A DNA stretch of 64,000 nucleotides. It comes from Myxococcus eversor (GTDB lineage Bacteria; Myxococcota; Myxococcia; Myxococcales; Myxococcaceae). The translations under genes and the position numbers were made by a program. Of this stretch, positions 25,748 to 38,951 are shown in pieces (the stretch's first letter is position 1; each line of letters starts with the position of its first letter). The notes under the pieces were generated by a model, which was not told where the DNA came from, ran no database searches, and worked only from the letters and a program-made list of their open reading frames with translations. Location: positions 186,001 to 250,000 of the forward strand of contig NZ_JAAIXY010000004.1 of NCBI RefSeq assembly GCF_010894455.1, written 5' to 3'.

Positions 25748-27808
<2,061 letters not shown>

Positions 27809-30938: not shown

Positions 30939-32057
30939 TCAGGCCCGGGCCCGGGCACCCGCGCGGTCGTACCGGAAGGGTGCCAGGTCCAGGGTGGCCC
31001 GCTCTCCGAGGACGGCCTCGGCCACGAGCTTCGCGGTGATGGGAGCCAGGAGGATGCCGTTGCGGAAGTGTCCGGTGGCGAGAAAGAGGCCCGGGGTAGG
31101 CCCCTCCCCGAGGTAGGGCCGCTTGTCCTCCGTCCAGGGGCGGAAGCCGGCCCACGTCTCGGTGATGGGGGCGGAGCCGAGCTCCGGACACAGCTCCAGG
31201 ACCATGTCGAGGATGCGGGCCAGCCCCGCGGCCGTCACCTGCTTGTCGAAGCCCACCATCTCCATGGTGCTGCCGGCGATGATGCGGCCGTCCGCGCGGG
31301 GGACGACGTAGCCCTTCTCCGACGTGAGGATGTGCTGGAGCAGCGGCAGGCGCGTCTGGAGCTGGATCATCTGCCCGCGCGCGGGACGCACGGCCTTCGC
31401 CTCCACGCCCGCGCCCTGGACGAGGGACGACCACGAACCCGCGGCGAGCACCACCGCGTCCGCGCGCAGCACCTCGCCATCCAGGTCCACGCCCGCCGCG
31501 CGGCCCGCTTCGTGGACGATGCCGCGCACGTAGCCGCTTCGAAACCCGGCGCCCACGCGCGCGGCGGCCATCGTCAAGGCGCGGACGAGGAGCCGATTGT
31601 CCACTTGATGATCATCCGGGAAGTGGGCGGCGGCCACGGCCTTCGTGGACAGGCGCGGCTCCAGCGCGCGGGCCTGGGCGCCATCGAGCACCTCCGCGCG
31701 AAGGCCCTGCGCGCGTTGCCACAGCACGGTGGCTTCGAGGTGCCGCACCGCTTCGTCGCTGAAGGCGACCTTGAGGACGCCGCTGGGGCGGTAGGCGATG
31801 TCGACGCCGGACAGTTCGCGCAGCTCCTCGGCGAAGGCGGGGTAGAGGGCGAGGCTTCGCAGGCACAGGTCGAGGAAGGGACCGGGGCCGTCGGATTCCA
31901 TCTGCGGGGCGAGCATTCCCGCGGCGGCGCTGCTGGCCTCGGCGCCGGGGATGGAGCGCTCCAGCACGGTGACGCGCGCGCCCGCCTGCCGAAGCCGCAG
32001 GGCGATGCCGCAGCCCATGATGCCCCCGCCCACGATGATGACGTCCGAGACTCGCAT
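30939..32057 (-). CDS. thiO: Glycine oxidase ThiO-type FAD oxidoreductase
   Basis: A 372-residue DAO-family flavoenzyme: FAD motif DVIIVGGGIMGCGIALRLRQ at residues 5-24, the ThiO-like SSAAAGMLAPQME, and C-terminal GHFRNGILLAPITAKL typical of glycine oxidase. ThiO makes dehydroglycine for the thiazole half of thiamine in organisms without ThiH. AGGAAAG precedes the ATG. It is divergent from the histidine operon, with about 100 bases between. Other amine oxidases share the fold, so the substrate is by family. Confidence 0.85.
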   Translation of the reverse strand: MRVSDVIIVGGGIMGCGIALRLRQAGARVTVLERSIPGAEASSAAAGMLAPQMESDGPGPFLDLCLRSLALYPAFAEELRELSGVDIAYRPSGVLKVAFSDEAVRHLEATVLWQRAQGLRAEVLDGAQARALEPRLSTKAVAAAHFPDDHQVDNRLLVRALTMAAARVGAGFRSGYVRGIVHEAGRAAGVDLDGEVLRADAVVLAAGSWSSLVQGAGVEAKAVRPARGQMIQLQTRLPLLQHILTSEKGYVVPRADGRIIAGSTMEMVGFDKQVTAAGLARILDMVLELCPELGSAPITETWAGFRPWTEDKRPYLGEGPTPGLFLATGHFRNGILLAPITAKLVAEAVLGERATLDLAPFRYDRAGARARA

Positions 32058-32124: not shown

Positions 32125-32153
32125 TTGACGGCGAGGGGCCCTTGCCATTACTC
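32125..32153 (+). promoter_or_regulatory. Promoter of the histidine operon
   Basis: TTGACG (32125-32130), 16-17 bases, then ATTACT/TTACTC (32147-32153) gives a recognisable -35/-10 pair. The +1 is expected near 32160, directly before the leader-peptide GTG at 32162. Confidence 0.6.
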
Positions 32154-32161
32154 ATGGGGCC

Positions 32162-32254
32162 GTGCGTCTCTCTTCCGTGCATCCCCATCATGCGCATCAT
32201 CGGCTCGGCCCCGACGGGACCGTTCGCCACGCGCATGCCTGGGTGAGCCACTAG
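32162..32254 (+). CDS. hisL: Histidine operon leader peptide
   Basis: A 30-codon reading frame (GTG at 32162, TAG at 32252) translating to a peptide with eight histidines. Five are packed into HPHHAHH at residues 7-13, the others at 23, 25 and 30. It lies between a promoter and an intrinsic terminator upstream of hisG, exactly as expected for attenuation: ribosomes stall at His codons when charged tRNA-His is scarce and let an antiterminator form. The frame is shorter than usual gene finders report. The start is near the predicted +1, so it may be translated leaderless. Confidence 0.8.
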   Translation: MRLSSVHPHHAHHRLGPDGTVRHAHAWVSH

Positions 32255-32291
32255 ACGCACCACCCTCCCGGCACCTGCCGCAGCGAATGAA

Positions 32292-32320
32292 GGCCCGTCC
32301 CCCCCGGACGGGCCTTTTTT
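32292..32320 (+). terminator. Attenuator terminator of the histidine operon
   Basis: GGCCCGTCC (32292-32300) pairs perfectly with GGACGGGCC (32306-32314), followed by six T (32315-32320), 51 bases before hisG. The 5' arm could alternatively pair through CCCGTC with GACGGG at 32213-32218 inside the leader-peptide coding region, giving a candidate antiterminator. Confidence 0.9.
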
Positions 32321-32370
32321 CGTTTGCGCGCGGCCCTTCGATTCCCCCGCAACCCCCCGTAGGTCCAACC

Positions 32371-33231
32371 ATGTTGCTGAAGATCGCTCTTCCCAACAAA
32401 GGCCGCCTTTCCGAAGAGGTTCGTGAGCTTTTCAACGATGCGGGCCTGGAGGTGCGCGGCAGAGGAGAGCGCGCACTCACCGCGTCGCTCGGTGGCGAGT
32501 TCGAGGCCATCTTCGTGCGCGCCCAGGACATCCCGGAGTTCGTCGCGGACGGCGCGGCGCACGCGGGTGTCACGGGATGGGATTTGGTGAACGAGGCGGG
32601 GCGTGAGCTCGAACACCTGATGGACCTGGAGTTCGGCAGGTGTCGGCTCGTCGTGGCGGCGCGCGAGGAGAGCGGAATCACCCAGGCCAGCGATGTCCGC
32701 GACGGCATGCGCGTGGCGTCGTGCTTCCCCCGGCTGACGCAGGACTACTTCGCGAAGCGGGGGCAGCGCATCACCGTGGTCCCCGTCTCGGGAGCGGCGG
32801 AGATTGCTCCGCACCTGGGCATCGCGGACCTCGTGGTGGACCTGACGTCCACGGGCTCCACGCTGAAGATGAACGGGCTGCGCGAGGTGGCCACGGTGCT
32901 GGAGTCCAGCGCGCGACTGGTCTCCAGCAACTCGAACGTCCCGGAGGCGCGCAAGCGGCTGGACGAATTGAAGCTGGCGCTGGGCTCGGTGCTCGCGGCG
33001 CGCGGCAAGCGCTACCTGATGGCCAACGTGCCTCGGGATGTCCTCACCGAGGTCCGGGAGGTTCTTCCCGGCCTCAATGGCCCCACGGTGGTGGACGTGC
33101 TGGGCGGAGGGATGTTCGTCGCCGTGCACGCGGTGGTGCCGGCGAAGACCATCTACCGCACCGTCAACGCGCTGAAGGCGCTGGGTGCCGAGGGCATCCT
33201 CGTCACCCGCATCGAAAGGCTGGTGGCGTGA
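32371..33231 (+). CDS. hisG: ATP phosphoribosyltransferase HisG, long form
   Basis: A 286-residue first enzyme of histidine synthesis, joining ATP and PRPP. The start LLKIALPNKGRLSEEVRELF and the PRPP-site region DLVVDLTSTGSTLKMNGLRE are diagnostic. The length and C-terminal regulatory domain (VVPAKTIYRTVNALKALGAE) show the long form that is inhibited by histidine and needs no HisZ. It is the first gene after the attenuator and its TGA shares a base with the hisD ATG. Confidence 0.97.
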   Translation: MLLKIALPNKGRLSEEVRELFNDAGLEVRGRGERALTASLGGEFEAIFVRAQDIPEFVADGAAHAGVTGWDLVNEAGRELEHLMDLEFGRCRLVVAAREESGITQASDVRDGMRVASCFPRLTQDYFAKRGQRITVVPVSGAAEIAPHLGIADLVVDLTSTGSTLKMNGLREVATVLESSARLVSSNSNVPEARKRLDELKLALGSVLAARGKRYLMANVPRDVLTEVREVLPGLNGPTVVDVLGGGMFVAVHAVVPAKTIYRTVNALKALGAEGILVTRIERLVA

Positions 33232-34538
33232 TGACGCCGCTTCCTTCGTTCCTTCGCTATCGAGGCCCCCTGGCCAGCCTGTCCCTGGAGGACCGGCGCC
33301 GGCTGTTGGACCGAGGCGGAGATGTGGACACGCGCATCTCCGCGCGAGTGCGGGAGCTCATCGCCAAGGTCCGGCTGGATGGGGACTGGGCGCTCTTCGA
33401 GATGGCGCGCCAGTTCGACCGCGCGGAGCTCGTCTCGCTGGAGGTGCCTCGGGCGCGCTGTGAGCAGGCGCTCGAATCGTTGGACCCGTCGCTGGCGCGG
33501 GCCCTGGCGCGCGCGGCGCGGAACATCGCGAAGGCGCACGAGGCACAGAAGCCTCGCGCGGTGGAGGTGGAGACCGAGCCGGGCGTGCTCGTGGGCCGCA
33601 GGCCGGACCCGTTGGGTCGGGTGGGCGTGTATGCGCCGGGGGGCAGGGCGGTGTACCCGAGCAGCGTGTTGATGGGTGTGGTGCCGGCGAAGGTCGCGGG
33701 TGTGGGGGAGGTCATCGTCTGCTCGCCTCCGGGGCCGGACGGACTGCCCCACGCGAGCGTGCTGGCGGCGGCGGTGCTGGCGGGCGCGGACCGCGTCTTC
33801 GCGCTGGGGGGAGCGGGCGCGGTGGCGGCCATGGCGTACGGCACGGAGAGCGTTCCCCGCGTGGACCGCATCGTCGGGCCGGGCAATGCGTACGTGGCGG
33901 AGGCGAAGCTCCAGGTGGTGGGCGCGGTGGCCATCGAAGCACCCGCGGGGCCGAGCGAAATCCTGGTCGTCGCGGACGAGACGGCGAGCCCGGACGCGGT
34001 GGCGAGGGAGATGCTGGCGCAGGCGGAGCACGACCCGGACGCGGCCTGCGTGACGGTGGCGCTGGGCGAGGGCATGGCGGACGCCATCTCCGAGCAGGTG
34101 CGGCGTCTGTCGCTGGAGGCGAAGCGGCAGGAGATTGTCACTTCGGCGCTGCGCTCACGAGGGGCCGTGCTGAGCGTGACGTCGCTGGAGGAGGCGTGGC
34201 CCTTCGTGGCGGACTTCGCGCCGGAGCACCTGTTGCTCGCCACCGCGTCGCCCTCGGTGGACCTCGCGCGCGTGCGCAACGCGGGGACCGTCTTCCTCGG
34301 GGAGCGCTCCTCGGTGGCCTACGGCGACTACATGACGGGCTCCAACCACGTGCTGCCCACGGCGGGACTGGCGAGGGCCTACTCGGGATTGAACCTCCTC
34401 GACTTCTACCGGTGGACCACCTACCAGCGCGTGGAGCGCGCCGCGTCCCAGGCGATGGCGGAGGACGTGGGCCTGCTGGCGGACAGCGAGGGACTCTTCG
34501 CGCACGCGGACGCCGCGCGGGCATGGAGGCTCGAGTGA
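33231..34538 (+). CDS. hisD: Histidinol dehydrogenase HisD
   Basis: A 435-residue zinc enzyme that oxidises histidinol to histidine in two NAD steps. Family blocks are clear: GRVGVYAPGGRAVYPSSVLM, AMAYGTESVPRVDRIVGPGN, AGPSEILVVADETA, QAEHDPDAACVTV and SVAYGDYMTGSNHVLPTAG, with the Gln-His pair of AQAEHD and later His residues as zinc and catalytic residues. It overlaps hisG by one base and hisC by four (or sixteen with the alternative start). Confidence 0.97.
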   Translation: MTPLPSFLRYRGPLASLSLEDRRRLLDRGGDVDTRISARVRELIAKVRLDGDWALFEMARQFDRAELVSLEVPRARCEQALESLDPSLARALARAARNIAKAHEAQKPRAVEVETEPGVLVGRRPDPLGRVGVYAPGGRAVYPSSVLMGVVPAKVAGVGEVIVCSPPGPDGLPHASVLAAAVLAGADRVFALGGAGAVAAMAYGTESVPRVDRIVGPGNAYVAEAKLQVVGAVAIEAPAGPSEILVVADETASPDAVAREMLAQAEHDPDAACVTVALGEGMADAISEQVRRLSLEAKRQEIVTSALRSRGAVLSVTSLEEAWPFVADFAPEHLLLATASPSVDLARVRNAGTVFLGERSSVAYGDYMTGSNHVLPTAGLARAYSGLNLLDFYRWTTYQRVERAASQAMAEDVGLLADSEGLFAHADAARAWRLE

Positions 34539-35575
34539 TTCCCTCGCGTGCGTCCTTCCGGGACATTCCGCTGTATTCGCCAGCGAAGCGGCCCTGTCGC
34601 GTGGACCTGAGCGACAACACCAACCTCTTCGGCGTGCCACCCGCGGCGGCGCGAGTGCTGCGTGAGTCCGCCGTGGAGTCGCTGTCGCGCTATCCCCGGG
34701 GCTATGCACCCGACCTGCGCGGAGCCCTGGCCGAGCAGCTCGGCGTGGGGCCCGAGTGGGTGACGACGGGCTGTGGCTCCGACGACGTCCTCGACAGCGC
34801 CCTGCGTGCATTCCTGGAGCCGGGCGAGCTGCTCGCGTTCCAGGACCCGACGTTCGTGATGATGCCGCTGTTCGCGCAGGTGAACGGACTGCGGACGGTG
34901 GCGGTGCCCCTGCGCGCGGACTTCGACGTGGAGCCCGAGTGGTTGGTGTCCACGGAGGCGAAGGTCATCTACCTGTGCTCGCCGAACAATCCCACGGGCA
35001 CGGTGCTGTCGCGCGCGGCGGTGGAGCGCGTGGTGGAGCGCGCGCCGGGGCTGGTCATCATCGACGAGGCGTATGCCGACTTCGCGCGCGGGCCCGGATT
35101 CATGGACCTGGCGCGCACGAGGACCAACGTGCTGGTGACGCGCACGTTCTCGAAGGCCTTCGGGCTCGCGGGGATGCGAGTGGGCTGGGGCGTGGGACAC
35201 CCGAAGCTCGTGGCCGAAGTCGAGAAGGCGCGGGGCCCGTACAAGCTCACCACGCTCGCGGAGTCGATGGCCGTGGCCACGCTGCGCGAGGACTCGGGCT
35301 GGGTGCGCGCTCGGGTGGAGGAGGCGGTGGCCAACCGGGAGCGCCTGCGGGGCGAACTGGTGGCGATGGGACTGAAGCCGCTGCCTTCGGAGGGCAACTT
35401 CCTGATGGTGCCATTGCCCGGAGCGCCGGGAGTGGCGGAGCGGATGCGGGAGCGCGACGTGAATGTGCGGGCCTTCCAGGGGCTGACCGGAATCGGAGAT
35501 GCGCTCCGAATCGGCAGTGCTCCCTGGCCCCTGATGGAGACGGCGCTGGTGGCGCTGCGGGAGTCCTTGCGATGA
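34535..35575 (+). CDS. hisC: Histidinol-phosphate aminotransferase HisC
   Basis: A 346-residue PLP enzyme, fold type I. PLP-binding Lys lies in RTFSKAFGLAGMRVGW, with LCSPNNPTGTVLS and VIIDEAYADFA upstream. I chose the GTG at 34535: GGAGG sits five bases before it and it forms a GTGA overlap with the hisD stop; an ATG at 34523 would add four residues. Length and motifs are normal. Confidence 0.95.
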   Translation: MIPSRASFRDIPLYSPAKRPCRVDLSDNTNLFGVPPAAARVLRESAVESLSRYPRGYAPDLRGALAEQLGVGPEWVTTGCGSDDVLDSALRAFLEPGELLAFQDPTFVMMPLFAQVNGLRTVAVPLRADFDVEPEWLVSTEAKVIYLCSPNNPTGTVLSRAAVERVVERAPGLVIIDEAYADFARGPGFMDLARTRTNVLVTRTFSKAFGLAGMRVGWGVGHPKLVAEVEKARGPYKLTTLAESMAVATLREDSGWVRARVEEAVANRERLRGELVAMGLKPLPSEGNFLMVPLPGAPGVAERMRERDVNVRAFQGLTGIGDALRIGSAPWPLMETALVALRESLR

Positions 35576-36165
35576 GAGTCACCTTGTTCGACTACGGCGC
35601 TGGAAACATCCACTCGCTGGCCAAGGCGTTGGCCACGGCGGAGGGAGTCGACGTTCGCGTGGAGGTGGACCCGGCGCGGGCGGTGGACACGGAGGTTCTC
35701 GTGCTGCCCGGTGTGGGGGCCTTCGGTGCCGCGGCGGCGCGACTGGCTCCCGGGCGCGAGGTGATGCGTTCGGCCCTGGAGCGGGGCCTGCCGTGCCTGG
35801 GCATCTGCCTGGGCATGCAGCTTCTCTTCGATTCGAGTGACGAGGGAGAAGGTCAGGGCCTGGGCTACTTCCCCGGGCGGGTGACGCGGCTTGCGGCACG
35901 TCGAGTCCCCCAGATTGGCTGGAACCAGGTGGACGAAGACAGCACGTTGTCCGGCGCGAAGCTGGACACCGTGTACTACGCGCACAGCTTCGTCTGCCGC
36001 GCGGAGGATGCGTCCGTCGTGACGGGGTGGACGACGCACGAGGAGGACCGTTTCCCCGCCGTCGTCCGGCGCGGCCGGGTGGTGGGCGTGCAGTTCCACC
36101 CGGAGAAGTCCTCGTCCTCGGGCGTGGCCTTCGTGCGGGCCTTCTTGCGCGAGGTGGCGTCATGA
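35572..36165 (+). CDS. hisH: Imidazole glycerol phosphate synthase glutaminase subunit HisH
   Basis: A 197-residue class I amidotransferase that feeds ammonia to HisF. The nucleophile Cys is in PCLGICLGMQLLF, and the His-Glu pair is in VVGVQFHPEKSSSSG. The N-terminal VTLFDYGAGNIHSLAKAL is typical. It joins hisC and hisA through ATGA overlaps. Its partner hisF is three genes downstream. Confidence 0.97.
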   Translation: MRVTLFDYGAGNIHSLAKALATAEGVDVRVEVDPARAVDTEVLVLPGVGAFGAAAARLAPGREVMRSALERGLPCLGICLGMQLLFDSSDEGEGQGLGYFPGRVTRLAARRVPQIGWNQVDEDSTLSGAKLDTVYYAHSFVCRAEDASVVTGWTTHEEDRFPAVVRRGRVVGVQFHPEKSSSSGVAFVRAFLREVAS

Positions 36166-36878
36166 GGGCGATTCCGGCCATCGACTTGCGCGAAGGCGCC
36201 TGCGTGCAGCTCGTCGGGGGCTCGTATGACGACGAACGCGTGCGCGTGAAGGACCCGCTGGACGCGCTGCTGCGGTGGCGTGCCTTCGGCTTCCGCGCCT
36301 TCCATGTCGTCGACCTGGATGCGGCGCTGGGAAAGGGTTCCAACGCGGACGTCGTGACGAGACTCACCGCGCATGAACCGGGGCTCACCTTCACGGTGGG
36401 CGGTGGCGTGAGGGAACTGGAGAAGGTGGAGGCCCTGCTGGAGGGGGGCGCCTCCGCGGTGGTGGTGGGGACTCGGGCCATCGAGGATCCGGCGTGGCTG
36501 GCGGAGGTCGCCAGGCGCTATCCCGGACGCGTGGTGGTGGCCGCCGACGTGCGAGGCCGCGAGGTGGTGACGCGAGGTTGGACGGCGGGCAGTGGCAGGA
36601 CGGTGGGGGACGTGCTCGCGACGTTGGACCCGCTGCCGCTTGGAGGGTTGTTGGTGACGGCGGTCCACAAGGAGGGGCAGCTCGAAGGCGTGGACCTGGC
36701 GCTGATGCGGGAGGTGGTGGTGCGCAGCCGCCACCGGCTCTACGCGTCGGGCGGGGTGACGACGTTGGAGGACTTGAGGGCGCTGGCCTCGGTGGGGGCG
36801 TACGGGGCGGTCATCGGCATGGCGCTGTACACGGGACGACTGGATGCGCGCGACGTCGCGCGGGAGTTCGCGGAATGA
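36162..36878 (+). CDS. hisA: ProFAR isomerase HisA
   Basis: A 238-residue beta/alpha-barrel that isomerises ProFAR to PRFAR. It begins AIPAIDLREGACVQLVGG with the catalytic Asp in AIDLR, and has the phosphate-site stretches FTVGGGVREL and LYASGGVTTLEDL. It overlaps both neighbours by four bases. It is specific for HisA rather than HisF by its start and length. Confidence 0.95.
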   Translation: MRAIPAIDLREGACVQLVGGSYDDERVRVKDPLDALLRWRAFGFRAFHVVDLDAALGKGSNADVVTRLTAHEPGLTFTVGGGVRELEKVEALLEGGASAVVVGTRAIEDPAWLAEVARRYPGRVVVAADVRGREVVTRGWTAGSGRTVGDVLATLDPLPLGGLLVTAVHKEGQLEGVDLALMREVVVRSRHRLYASGGVTTLEDLRALASVGAYGAVIGMALYTGRLDARDVAREFAE

Positions 36879-37411
36879 CCACCGTCACTCGGGAGACGAA
36901 GGAGACGCAGGTCCGTGTGGAGCTGTCCCTGGGCAAGGGCGCCACGCAGGTGGACACGGGGCTCAAGTTCTTCGACCACATGCTCGCGACCTTCGCGCGC
37001 TACGCGGGGCTCGACTTGAAGCTTCACGCGCGGGGTGACCTCACGCACCACTTGATGGAGGACGTGGCGATTACGTTGGGCACGGCGGTGCAGCGAGTGA
37101 TTCCGGCGACGGCGGCGCGGTTCGCGGAGCGCACGCTCCCCATGGACGACGCGCTCGTGCAGGCGTGTCTCGATGCGGGCGGACGGTTCTTCTACCAGGG
37201 GCCGCTGAAGAACCGGCTCTACGAGCACTGGATGCGGTCGTTCTGCGAGCACGCGAAGGTGACGTTGCACCTGCGGGTGTTGAGAGGGAAGGACAGCCAC
37301 CACGTCACCGAGGCGGCGTTCAAGGCGCTGGGGCTCGCGTTGCGCGATGCGATGGTGGACTCCGGCACCGTGTTCAGCATGAAGGGCTCCGTGGCCCTGG
37401 AGGTGCTCTGA
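36875..37411 (+). CDS. hisB: Imidazoleglycerol-phosphate dehydratase HisB
   Basis: A 178-residue monofunctional dehydratase. Metal-binding boxes are [29 protein letters not shown] and [17 protein letters not shown]. The usual HHTVED reads HHLMED, keeping the metal-binding His pair, Glu and Asp. It is slightly shorter than the typical 195-residue enzyme, without an apparent gap in the active site. No phosphatase domain is fused; histidinol phosphatase is supplied by hisN. It overlaps hisA (ATGA) and hisF (one base). Confidence 0.95.
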
Positions 37412-38172
37412 TGCTGACCCGACGACTCATCGTGTGTCTGGATGTGAAGGGCGGCCGGGTGGTGAAGGGCGTGCGCTTCGAGGGACTCCGCGACGTGGGA
37501 GACCCGGTGGAGCTGGCCTTGCGCTACGAGCAGGAGGGCGCGGACGAGGTGACGTTCCTCGACATCTCCGCGAGCAACGAGGAGCGGGACACGCTCCTGG
37601 ACCTGGTGCGGCGCACGGCGGAGCGGCTGTTCATTCCGTTGACCGTGGGAGGCGGAGTGCGCACGGCCGACGATGTGGGCCGAGCGCTTCGGGCGGGCGC
37701 GGACAAGGTGAGCATCAACTCGGCGGCGGTGGCTCGGCCCGAGGTGCTCACGGAGTGCGCGGAGCGCTTCGGTGCGCAGTGCGTGGTGGCGAGCATCGAT
37801 GCGCGAAAGGATGGCTCGGGCTGGCGTGTCCATACGCACGGGGGGCGCAAGCCCACGGAGCTGGAGGCGGTGGCATGGGCTCGCGAGTGCGTGGCGCGCG
37901 GCGCGGGCGAAGTGCTGCTCACCAGCATCGACCAGGATGGAGCGCGCTCTGGCTATGACCTGGAGCTGACGCGCGCGGTGGCGGACGCGGTGGATGTGCC
38001 CGTCATCGCCTCTGGCGGCGCGGGCAATGCGGAGCACGTGCGTGAAGGACTCACGCGTGGCGGCGCGGACGCGGCGCTGGTGGCGGGCATCCTCCACGAT
38101 GGGCTCACCACGGTGGGTGCCATCAAGTCGCTGCTCCGCGAGAGCGGCCTTCCGATTCGGAGCACGACATGA
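37411..38172 (+). CDS. hisF: Imidazole glycerol phosphate synthase cyclase subunit HisF
   Basis: A 253-residue beta/alpha-barrel cyclase. It starts [20 protein letters not shown] with catalytic Asp in CLDVK, and has ITVGGGV-type [25 protein letters not shown], and the second catalytic Asp in [15 protein letters not shown]. It works with HisH to form IGP and AICAR. The stop overlaps hisN in ATGA. Confidence 0.97.
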
Positions 38173-38951
38173 CGACGAGCGCACAAGGATTGATGCAGGC
38201 CGCCGCGGAAGTCGCGCGCAAGGCAGGAGACGTGGCGCTGGGCTACTTCCGGAGCGGCATCGCCGTGGACACCAAGAGCGACGGCACACCCGTCACCGTC
38301 GCGGACCGCACGGCCGAGAAGACCGCGCGAGAATGGCTCGAGGCCCGCTTCCCGGACGACGGCATCCTCGGGGAAGAGTTCGGAGAGACGCGGCCGGGTG
38401 CTCAGCGTCGCTGGATCCTGGACCCCATCGACGGAACCAAGACCTTCATCCGAGGCGTTCCACTGTGGGGCACCCTCGTGGCCCTGGCGGAAGGGGAGCG
38501 CATCCTCGTGGGCGCCGCATACTTCCCCGCCGTGAACGAACTGCTCGTGGCCGCACCCGGGCAGGGGTGTTTCTGGAACGACCAGCGCGCGAAGGTGTCC
38601 GAGCAGGCCGACCTCTCCCGCGCGGTGGTGCTCACCACCGACGAGCGCTTCCGCCAGTACCCCGAGCGCGGTGATGCCTGGCGTCGCTTCACCCTCGACG
38701 CCGCCATCTCCCGGACCTGGGGCGACTGCTACGGATATCTCTTGGTGGCCACCGGCCGTGCCGAGGTCATGGTCGACGAGCTGCTCTCACCCTGGGATGC
38801 CGCCGCGCTCCAGCCCATCATCGACGAGGCCGGAGGCGTCTTCACCGATTGGACGGGGCGACGAACCTCATTCGGCGGCAACGGCATCGCCACCAACGCG
38901 GCCCTGGCCCGTGTCACCCGCGAGCGCCTGGGCGCGACGGAGGTCGAATGA
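38169..38951 (+). CDS. hisN: Histidinol-phosphatase, inositol-monophosphatase type
   Basis: A 260-residue Mg-dependent phosphatase. Metal motifs are GILGEEFGE and [20 protein letters not shown], and the C-terminal [17 protein letters not shown] completes the site. The family also includes inositol monophosphatases, but the position inside the his operon, overlapping hisF and hisIE, and the absence of a phosphatase domain on HisB make histidinol phosphatase the clear reading. Confidence 0.92.

Follow-up and report, generated by a model that had tools for sequence, protein, structure and literature searches.

The his locus and its leader

The 64 kb stretch of DNA analysed here, called the window throughout, belongs to an assembly of 11.4 Mb and carries a Myxococcus hisGDCHAB operon. 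Ahead of the operon, positions 32125-32320 hold a promoter, a leader open reading frame (ORF) and a terminator, in that order. The first gene, hisG, encodes the long form with a C-terminal domain, scoring above the cut-offs of both TIGR00070 and TIGR03455, and its product is 98% identical to HisG of M. qinghaiensis. The remaining genes were assigned by NCBIfam matches: hisD and hisH exceed their own cut-offs, and hisC, hisA and hisB each have their own family as best match, at scores below the curated cut-offs. The features, all on the plus strand, are:

32125-32130, plus strand: -35 element TTGACG, its first T 37 nt before the leader GTG
32148-32155, plus strand: weak -10-like block TTACTCAT, with TACTCA at 32149-32154 and an 18-nt spacer
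32162-32254, plus strand: leader ORF of 30 codons, MRLSSVHPHHAHHRLGPDGTVRHAHAWVSH, with eight His; GTG start at 32162, stop TAG at 32252-32254
32162-32169, plus strand: 5' strand of the closing stem, GTGCGTCT, in the start-codon region (minimum-energy fold)
32180-32200, plus strand: regulatory His codons 7, 9, 10, 12 and 13 (HPHHAHH), as judged from conservation and ribosome-footprint folding
32185-32195, plus strand: 5' strand of the outer stem, within the His-block codons, CCA at 32185-32187 and CATGCGC at 32189-32195
32206-32222, plus strand: inner 1:2 hairpin (anti-antiterminator), CGGCCC at 32206-32211, loop CGAC, GGG at 32216-32218, bulged A at 32219, CCG at 32220-32222
32213-32221, plus strand: antiterminator segment 2, GACGGG(A)CC, with the GACGGG core at 32213-32218
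32231-32242, plus strand: 3' strand of the outer stem, GCGCATG at 32231-32237 and TGG at 32240-32242
32253-32260, plus strand: 3' strand of the closing stem, AGACGCAC, overlapping the last two bases of the stop codon
32290-32320, plus strand: intrinsic terminator, AAGGCCCGTCC at 32290-32300, loop CCCCC, GGACGGGCCTT at 32306-32316, T run to 32320
32292-32299, plus strand: antiterminator segment 3, GGCCCGTC, within the 5' arm of the terminator
32371-33231, plus strand: hisG, first gene of the operon, ATG at 32371
33228-37411, plus strand: hisD, hisC, hisH, hisA and hisB

The leader peptide and its conservation in Myxococcaceae

An earlier note had described a 30-codon leader with eight His codons, five of them in seven residues, and a reading of the window agrees with it. 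The block reads HPHHAHH, and the window leader holds no enteric-type run of seven consecutive His codons. Nowhere else in the 64 kb window, read in all six frames, do seven codons include five or more His, and no such place arose in 4000 sequences of 313 nt generated by a first-order Markov model. All eight His codons are present, but only five of them (codons 7, 9, 10, 12 and 13) lie where a stalled ribosome would matter.

A hisG match was found in 73 of 96 Myxococcaceae genomes, leaving 23 without, and a His-rich leader ORF lies upstream in 71 of the 73. The hisG of all 71 is at least 66% identical to that of the window; the two cases lacking a leader are distant hisG matches, with 36 and 33% identity. 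The 71 leader-to-terminator sequences include 69 distinct ones, every one of which has at least five His in seven codons, the maximum in any seven codons being six. The His codons and the terminator, whose conservation the earlier note had made one touchstone of its reading, are both conserved in relatives when the hisG upstream regions are aligned. We regard this conservation as the decisive control; a terminator by itself is weaker evidence.

The mode of change supports translation of the block. Codons were compared pairwise over 50 distinct regions of 54 nt around the end of the His block. Where they differ by a single base inside the block, 81% of the differences are synonymous in frame 0, compared with 4% and 10% in frames 1 and 2. 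Downstream of the block, the same 50 regions give 27% in frame 0 versus 65% in frame 2, which fits selection on the RNA, and not on the protein, in that part.

Promoter and start of translation

The earlier note had also called a promoter, and it is the conserved spacing that upholds this call. A TTGA- or TTGC-type -35 element has its first T 35-38 nt before the start codon in all 71 Myxococcaceae leaders, against 163 of 1420 control positions, and 61 of 64 Gemmatimonadota leaders have a -35-like motif 34-40 nt upstream of the start (control, 49 of 1267). The -10 element is poor and a generic sigma-70 consensus scan returned no promoters, so that the call draws on conservation and spacing. Of the Myxococcaceae leaders, 62 start with GTG and 9 with ATG, and Shine-Dalgarno-like tetramers are rare, being present in 4 of 71 Myxococcaceae and 4 of 64 Gemmatimonadota leaders.

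The distance from the -35 element to the start codon, combined with a normal spacer, places the transcription start at the start codon or about two bases from it. Deduced from this spacing, the 5' untranslated region would be 0-2 nt long, and the leader is probably leaderless. In the part of one survey that was available (PMC3160421), leaderless genes were detected in 8 of 33 delta-Proteobacteria genomes, where they average 15.8%; on those figures the idea is not a strange one for this group.

Mutually exclusive pairings

Three pairings that use common segments exclude one another in the leader RNA: an inner hairpin, an antiterminator and a terminator. The window terminator has 11 pairs and no mismatches, followed by six T at 32315-32320, the first two of which are also paired. 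The perfect terminator with six T that had been noticed before hisG is thus real in the window, and it recurs in all 71 Myxococcaceae leaders; in alignment A2, 100% of its cells are paired, with two pairs changed on both sides. A terminator search on the window found one, compared with 0.5 expected in shuffles.

The antiterminator proposed earlier, GACGGG with CCCGTC, stands with a nearly invariant core, except that CCCGTC lies at 32294-32299, one base later than had been given. The six core pairs are present in 66-67 of the 67-68 scorable sequences, and a two-pair extension, its outermost pair unformed in 18, occurs in part of the Myxococcaceae only. Covariation of the core within Myxococcaceae was absent, observed and shuffled values being equal, because the core hardly varies. 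Exchanging the partners among genomes was non-discriminating for the same invariance, with a mean run of 6.45 for own partners, 6.43 for exchanged and 5.76 for base-shuffled ones.

When the Myxococcaceae leaders are folded locally, the segment 2 GGG pairs with upstream bases in 70 of 71. In alignment A2, 79.3% of the inner-hairpin cells pair and no pair is changed on both sides, a low figure due in part to a one-column shift of some rows. Such shifted rows are probably also why RNAalifold, run on the 69-row alignment, displayed the outer stem and predicted just two of the inner-hairpin pairs.

The outer stem joins CATGCGC in the His block to GCGCATG, and this pairing is why the peptide tail looks conserved. 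Compensating changes were seen by eye: the Ala codon GCG has become CTG in one relative (L125), with the distal strand altered to match, and CAT has become CAC in two others (L126 and L127), again with a matching distal change. Beyond the earlier description, many relatives have an extra stem between the start-codon region and bases around or after the stop codon. In the window, the pairing of GTGCGTCT with AGACGCAC closes the minimum-energy fold of the full leader. This closing stem is not universal: its longest run is 3-8 pairs, and at least six pairs including the start codon form in 41 of 71 Myxococcaceae leaders. For the closing and outer stems, own partners beat exchanged ones in both groups, with none of 200 permutations as good, though these tests ignore sequence relatedness and may be inflated. 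The fold of the full-length leader has z = -6.56, none of 200 shuffles being as stable; folded only to the terminator loop, it has z = -1.28, with 19 of 200 shuffles as stable and therefore not clearly beyond shuffles, so the terminator supplies much of the full-length value.

Dependence of the fold on ribosome position

A 30-nt ribosome footprint was masked codon by codon, and the transcript was folded up to the terminator loop. In the window, the antiterminator probability reaches 0.99-1.0 when any of His codons 7, 9, 10, 12 and 13 occupies the A site, drops to 0.78 at codon 14 and 0.02 at codon 15, and stays at or below 0.03 from there to the stop (0 for codons 23 and 25, 0.03 for codon 30 and 0.01 for the stop itself); it is 0.0 without a ribosome. 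The last three His codons appear, in this model, to fall outside the regulatory range. A ribosome on codons 2-6 favours the antiterminator too (0.85-0.99). At full-length equilibrium, the terminator prevails at all ribosome positions (0.98-1.0), so the switch must be kinetic, the antiterminator forming before segment 4 is made.

The same test was applied to the Myxococcaceae and Gemmatimonadota leaders, with start codons revised in 13 leaders of both groups together. The mean over the core His codons exceeds both the stop and the no-ribosome values by more than 0.3 in 58 of 71 Myxococcaceae leaders; at least one contrast holds in 67, none is reversed, and the two-sided contrast fails in 13. 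Three deep lineages (L124, L128 and L129) score P = 0, with no switch by automatic segment choice. In these three, the automatic search took segments other than those read by eye, which give GTCGGG/CCCGAC in L124 and L129 and the five pairs TCGGG/CCCGA in L128. A simpler switch score is passed by 57 of 71 real leaders, compared with 15, 15, 17 and 17 of 71 under random synonymous recoding. In Gemmatimonadota the test is weak, with both contrasts in 13 of 63 leaders, at least one in 40 of 63 and one reversed. Counting any pairing of a terminator arm with the leader was tried as a measure of switching and discarded as unspecific.

Distribution beyond the Myxococcaceae leaders

Searched with a covariance model that was trained on 29 leaders, 73 of 179 Myxococcota genomes give a match at E <=0.001. 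These are the same 71 Myxococcaceae genomes, one further Myxococcaceae genome (G021, 4.0e-4) and one genome of another family of the order, which has a partial match to the leader model (G117:C1:312031-312134, E 7.9e-6). A second match, partial and no better than 2.7e-4, is present in five genomes, the source genome among them. The 35 hisG matches from other families of the order are 35-42% identical, and most end at about residue 190-215; this low identity and early end suggest, at the level of sequence, a different, short HisG in those families. The hisG in a record titled Comamonas sp. KCTC 72670 (L014) is Myxococcus-like, with 85% identity, and the name of the record is probably wrong.

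A similar leader occurs in a second phylum. Among the Gemmatimonadota, a hisG match was found in 221 of 295 genomes, many of them distant. The upstream regions taken numbered 70, from 30 top loci and 40 picked ones, all with hisG of 57% identity or more; two were too short. Of the 68 long-type hisG genes that remained, 64 are preceded by a leader with at least four His in eight codons, and 63 of these 64 leaders have a terminator. The Myxococcaceae model finds a site upstream of hisG in three of four non-myxobacterial genomes, one from Eisenbacteria and two from Gemmatimonadota (E values 7.7e-11, 3.9e-8 and 1.6e-4, the third genome having a better partial match elsewhere); the fourth gave weak partial matches only. 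The order hisG-hisD-hisC-hisH is common to the loci read, as far as each reaches, with hisD not found in L026 and hisC not found in L040 and L052.

Two observations concern single loci. In one Gemmatimonadota metagenome-assembled genome (L039), the end of the terminator, the T run and the flank stand in three tandem copies upstream of hisG. At three loci with spirochaete hisG (L055-L057), a short leader carries four or five His codons; that of L055 has the sequence AAGGAG between the promoter-like motif and the start, so that this his leader does not look leaderless.

In a HisG tree the Myxococcaceae are placed among the Gemmatimonadota, and an AU test mildly rejects a single clade of Gemmatimonadota (p = 0.030, for a group chosen after the tree was seen). 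The rows of the tree were gathered by similarity to the window hisG, and its starred branches do not force the placement. For these reasons, a transfer of the his operon between Gemmatimonadota and Myxococcaceae is suggested by the tree as a lead, and not as a result.

Proposed mechanism and alternative explanations

The element is very probably a ribosome-mediated transcription attenuator of the his operon, as predicted from comparison and modelled folding, and the design is a compact three-segment switch, not the enteric his layout. The ribosome-mediated, near-leaderless his attenuator envisaged in the earlier note is thus supported by the comparative and folding evidence, as a prediction. 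The parts, their conservation, the coding frame, the spacing, the exclusive pairings and the dependence of the fold on ribosome position are all computed. From these we infer that initiation is leaderless, that the element responds to histidine and that transcripts end prematurely in the cell.

Transcription would begin at, or within about two bases of, the GTG, and a ribosome would load on the 5' end without a Shine-Dalgarno site. When charged histidyl-tRNA is plentiful, the ribosome would pass the His block and reach the TAG, where the inner hairpin CGGCCC/GGGACCG could form and sequester GACGGG. The arm GGCCCGTCC would then be free to pair with GGACGGGCC, and RNA polymerase would stop before hisG. 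When histidyl-tRNA is short, the ribosome would stall on codons 7-13, covering the 5' strands of the outer and inner stems; the emerging CCCGTC would pair with GACGGG, the terminator would come too late, and hisGDCHAB would be transcribed. If the leader is not translated, it would fold on itself (closed, in the window, by the start region and the bases flanking the stop), making termination the default.

A bolder reading, which we hold to be improbable though worth stating, is that the leaderless start is itself part of the switch, so that the element would read both histidyl-tRNA charging and competence for leaderless initiation, and would have passed between Gemmatimonadota and Myxococcaceae together with the his operon, as a single self-contained unit. 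Once the stop-codon region is made, GTGCGTCT would fold onto AGACGCAC and lock an unloaded transcript in the terminating state, allowing no later loading.

The same attenuator could instead have its leader translated from a longer 5' untranslated region or from another start, and would then not be leaderless. The -10 element is weak, the leaderless start comes from spacing and not from a mapped 5' end, and in several relatives the open frame extends upstream as far as a TTG or GTG that lies at the -35 element or ahead of it. We nevertheless consider this unlikely, given a -35-to-start distance of 35-38 nt in 71 of 71 leaders and of 34-40 nt in 61 of 64 Gemmatimonadota leaders, the interchange of GTG (62) and ATG (9) at the start position, and Shine-Dalgarno-like motifs in as few as 4/71 and 4/64 leaders.

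Further from the attenuator is a structured RNA that senses something other than ribosome position, such as a riboswitch or a protein-binding leader, in which the His-rich ORF would be incidental. Such an RNA could account for the strong full-length structure (z = -6.56, terminator included) and for the RNA-like conservation after the His block (27% synonymous in frame 0, 65% in frame 2), but it leaves unexplained why amino-acid constraint acts on the block in one frame only and why the core His codons sit just where a stalled ribosome would free segment 2; with the leader matching no Rfam riboswitch or T-box family, we give this explanation very little weight. Least probable of all, to the point of being nearly negligible, is a degenerate or decorative leader, in effect a plain terminator or intergenic remnant without regulation. 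In its favour, the case for regulation is computed and not measured; against it, the leader is conserved across Myxococcaceae and a second phylum, change in the His block is mostly synonymous, and the computed switch is lost on synonymous recoding.

Relation to known attenuators

Ribosome-mediated his attenuation is classical in enteric bacteria, where the his leader has a multi-segment A-F layout. The Rfam family His_leader, of the enteric type known from Escherichia coli and Salmonella, is presumably RF00514. In trp- and leu-type attenuators there are 1:2, 2:3 and 3:4 alternatives, with the regulatory codons inside or next to segment 1. The window resembles these three-segment attenuators in its 1:2, 2:3 and 3:4 alternatives and in the placing of codons in or by segment 1; it differs in responding, presumably, to histidine and in that the start-codon region pairs after the stop in the window and in many relatives.

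With the enteric his leader it shares a His-codon peptide before the his operon, a terminator with an antiterminator and presumably the same signal, but it has one antiterminator and one inner hairpin. The enteric leader peptide has 18 amino acids with seven consecutive His, according to the available part of PMC3896937, whereas the window has HPHHAHH in 30 amino acids and no evident ribosome-binding site. At the gathering score, no Rfam family matched the leader in the window and 20 loci, His_leader and T-box included. Relaxing the search to E = 5 gave nine leader matches, among which His_leader and T-box are absent; all nine lie far below their gathering scores and were taken as chance.

If the his leader is leaderless, its ORF would begin at the transcription start, as those of actinobacterial and rhizobial leaderless leaders do. 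Leader ORFs at the transcription start are described in the parts available of three papers (PMC8079986, PMC5784534, PMC7298713) for Streptomyces lividans trpL1, leuL1, leuL2, ilvL, metL and thrL, for the ilvB leader of Corynebacterium diphtheriae and for Sinorhizobium meliloti trpL; the same parts report no leaderless histidine leader. A survey of Actinobacteria, as far as its text was available, gives no conserved RNA structure before histidine operons (PMC1262725). Attenuators for his genes have been proposed in Firmicutes, namely in the Bacillus cereus group, in Peptostreptococcaceae and Lutispora, and in Erysipelotrichales (PMC9413887, available part). These are similar in having a short leader with tandem His codons and a terminator with an antiterminator before his genes, and dissimilar in belonging to other lineages and in having, in the part available, three to five His in a row. 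The string 'Myxococc' is absent from the main text of PMC9413887, and as a word start from PMC2965389 and PMC4833913. Among the open-access matches listed, judged by titles and the starts of abstracts, no his attenuator was described in myxobacteria or Gemmatimonadota; most subscription papers and the 2004 proteobacterial survey by Vitreschak and colleagues lie outside that scope.

The mechanism is therefore known in kind, and what is new is probably the compact, apparently leaderless histidine version. Its occurrence is new as well: it is found in 71 of 71 Myxococcaceae genomes whose hisG is close, and in most Gemmatimonadota operons that were examined. Textbook his attenuation is thereby placed, in a form absent from Rfam, in two groups for which the open-access papers listed describe no such regulation. 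With its apparent leaderlessness, the element would allow one to ask, in a natural system, whether ribosomes that begin on a bare 5' end couple to RNA polymerase closely enough to control termination in Gram-negatives. Myxobacterial genetics gains a candidate control element that responds to histidine, and RNA annotation a new family.

Other amino-acid operons and neighbouring genes

A short-ORF scan upstream of five other amino-acid operon loci of the same genome gave no convincing leader. The one ORF with Trp, in L138, has no -35-like motif ahead of it. In this genome, the matches to the ilvB and leuA families (L132-L140) do not reach the curated cut-offs, a result in keeping with the auxotrophy of Myxococcus xanthus for branched-chain amino acids.

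The gene thiO, encoding glycine oxidase ThiO (TIGR02352 above cut-off), lies on the minus strand at 30939-32057 and is divergent from the his leader. A TPP riboswitch (RF00059, 74.2 bits) is found on the plus strand at 25777-25887, a few kb from thiO, and it is the only Rfam match in the window at the gathering score. Downstream of the operon, an ORF like those of the inositol-monophosphatase type occupies positions 38169-38951 on the plus strand, flanked by hisF-like and hisIE-like ORFs recognized by eye; from its sequence, it is a candidate histidinol-phosphate phosphatase.
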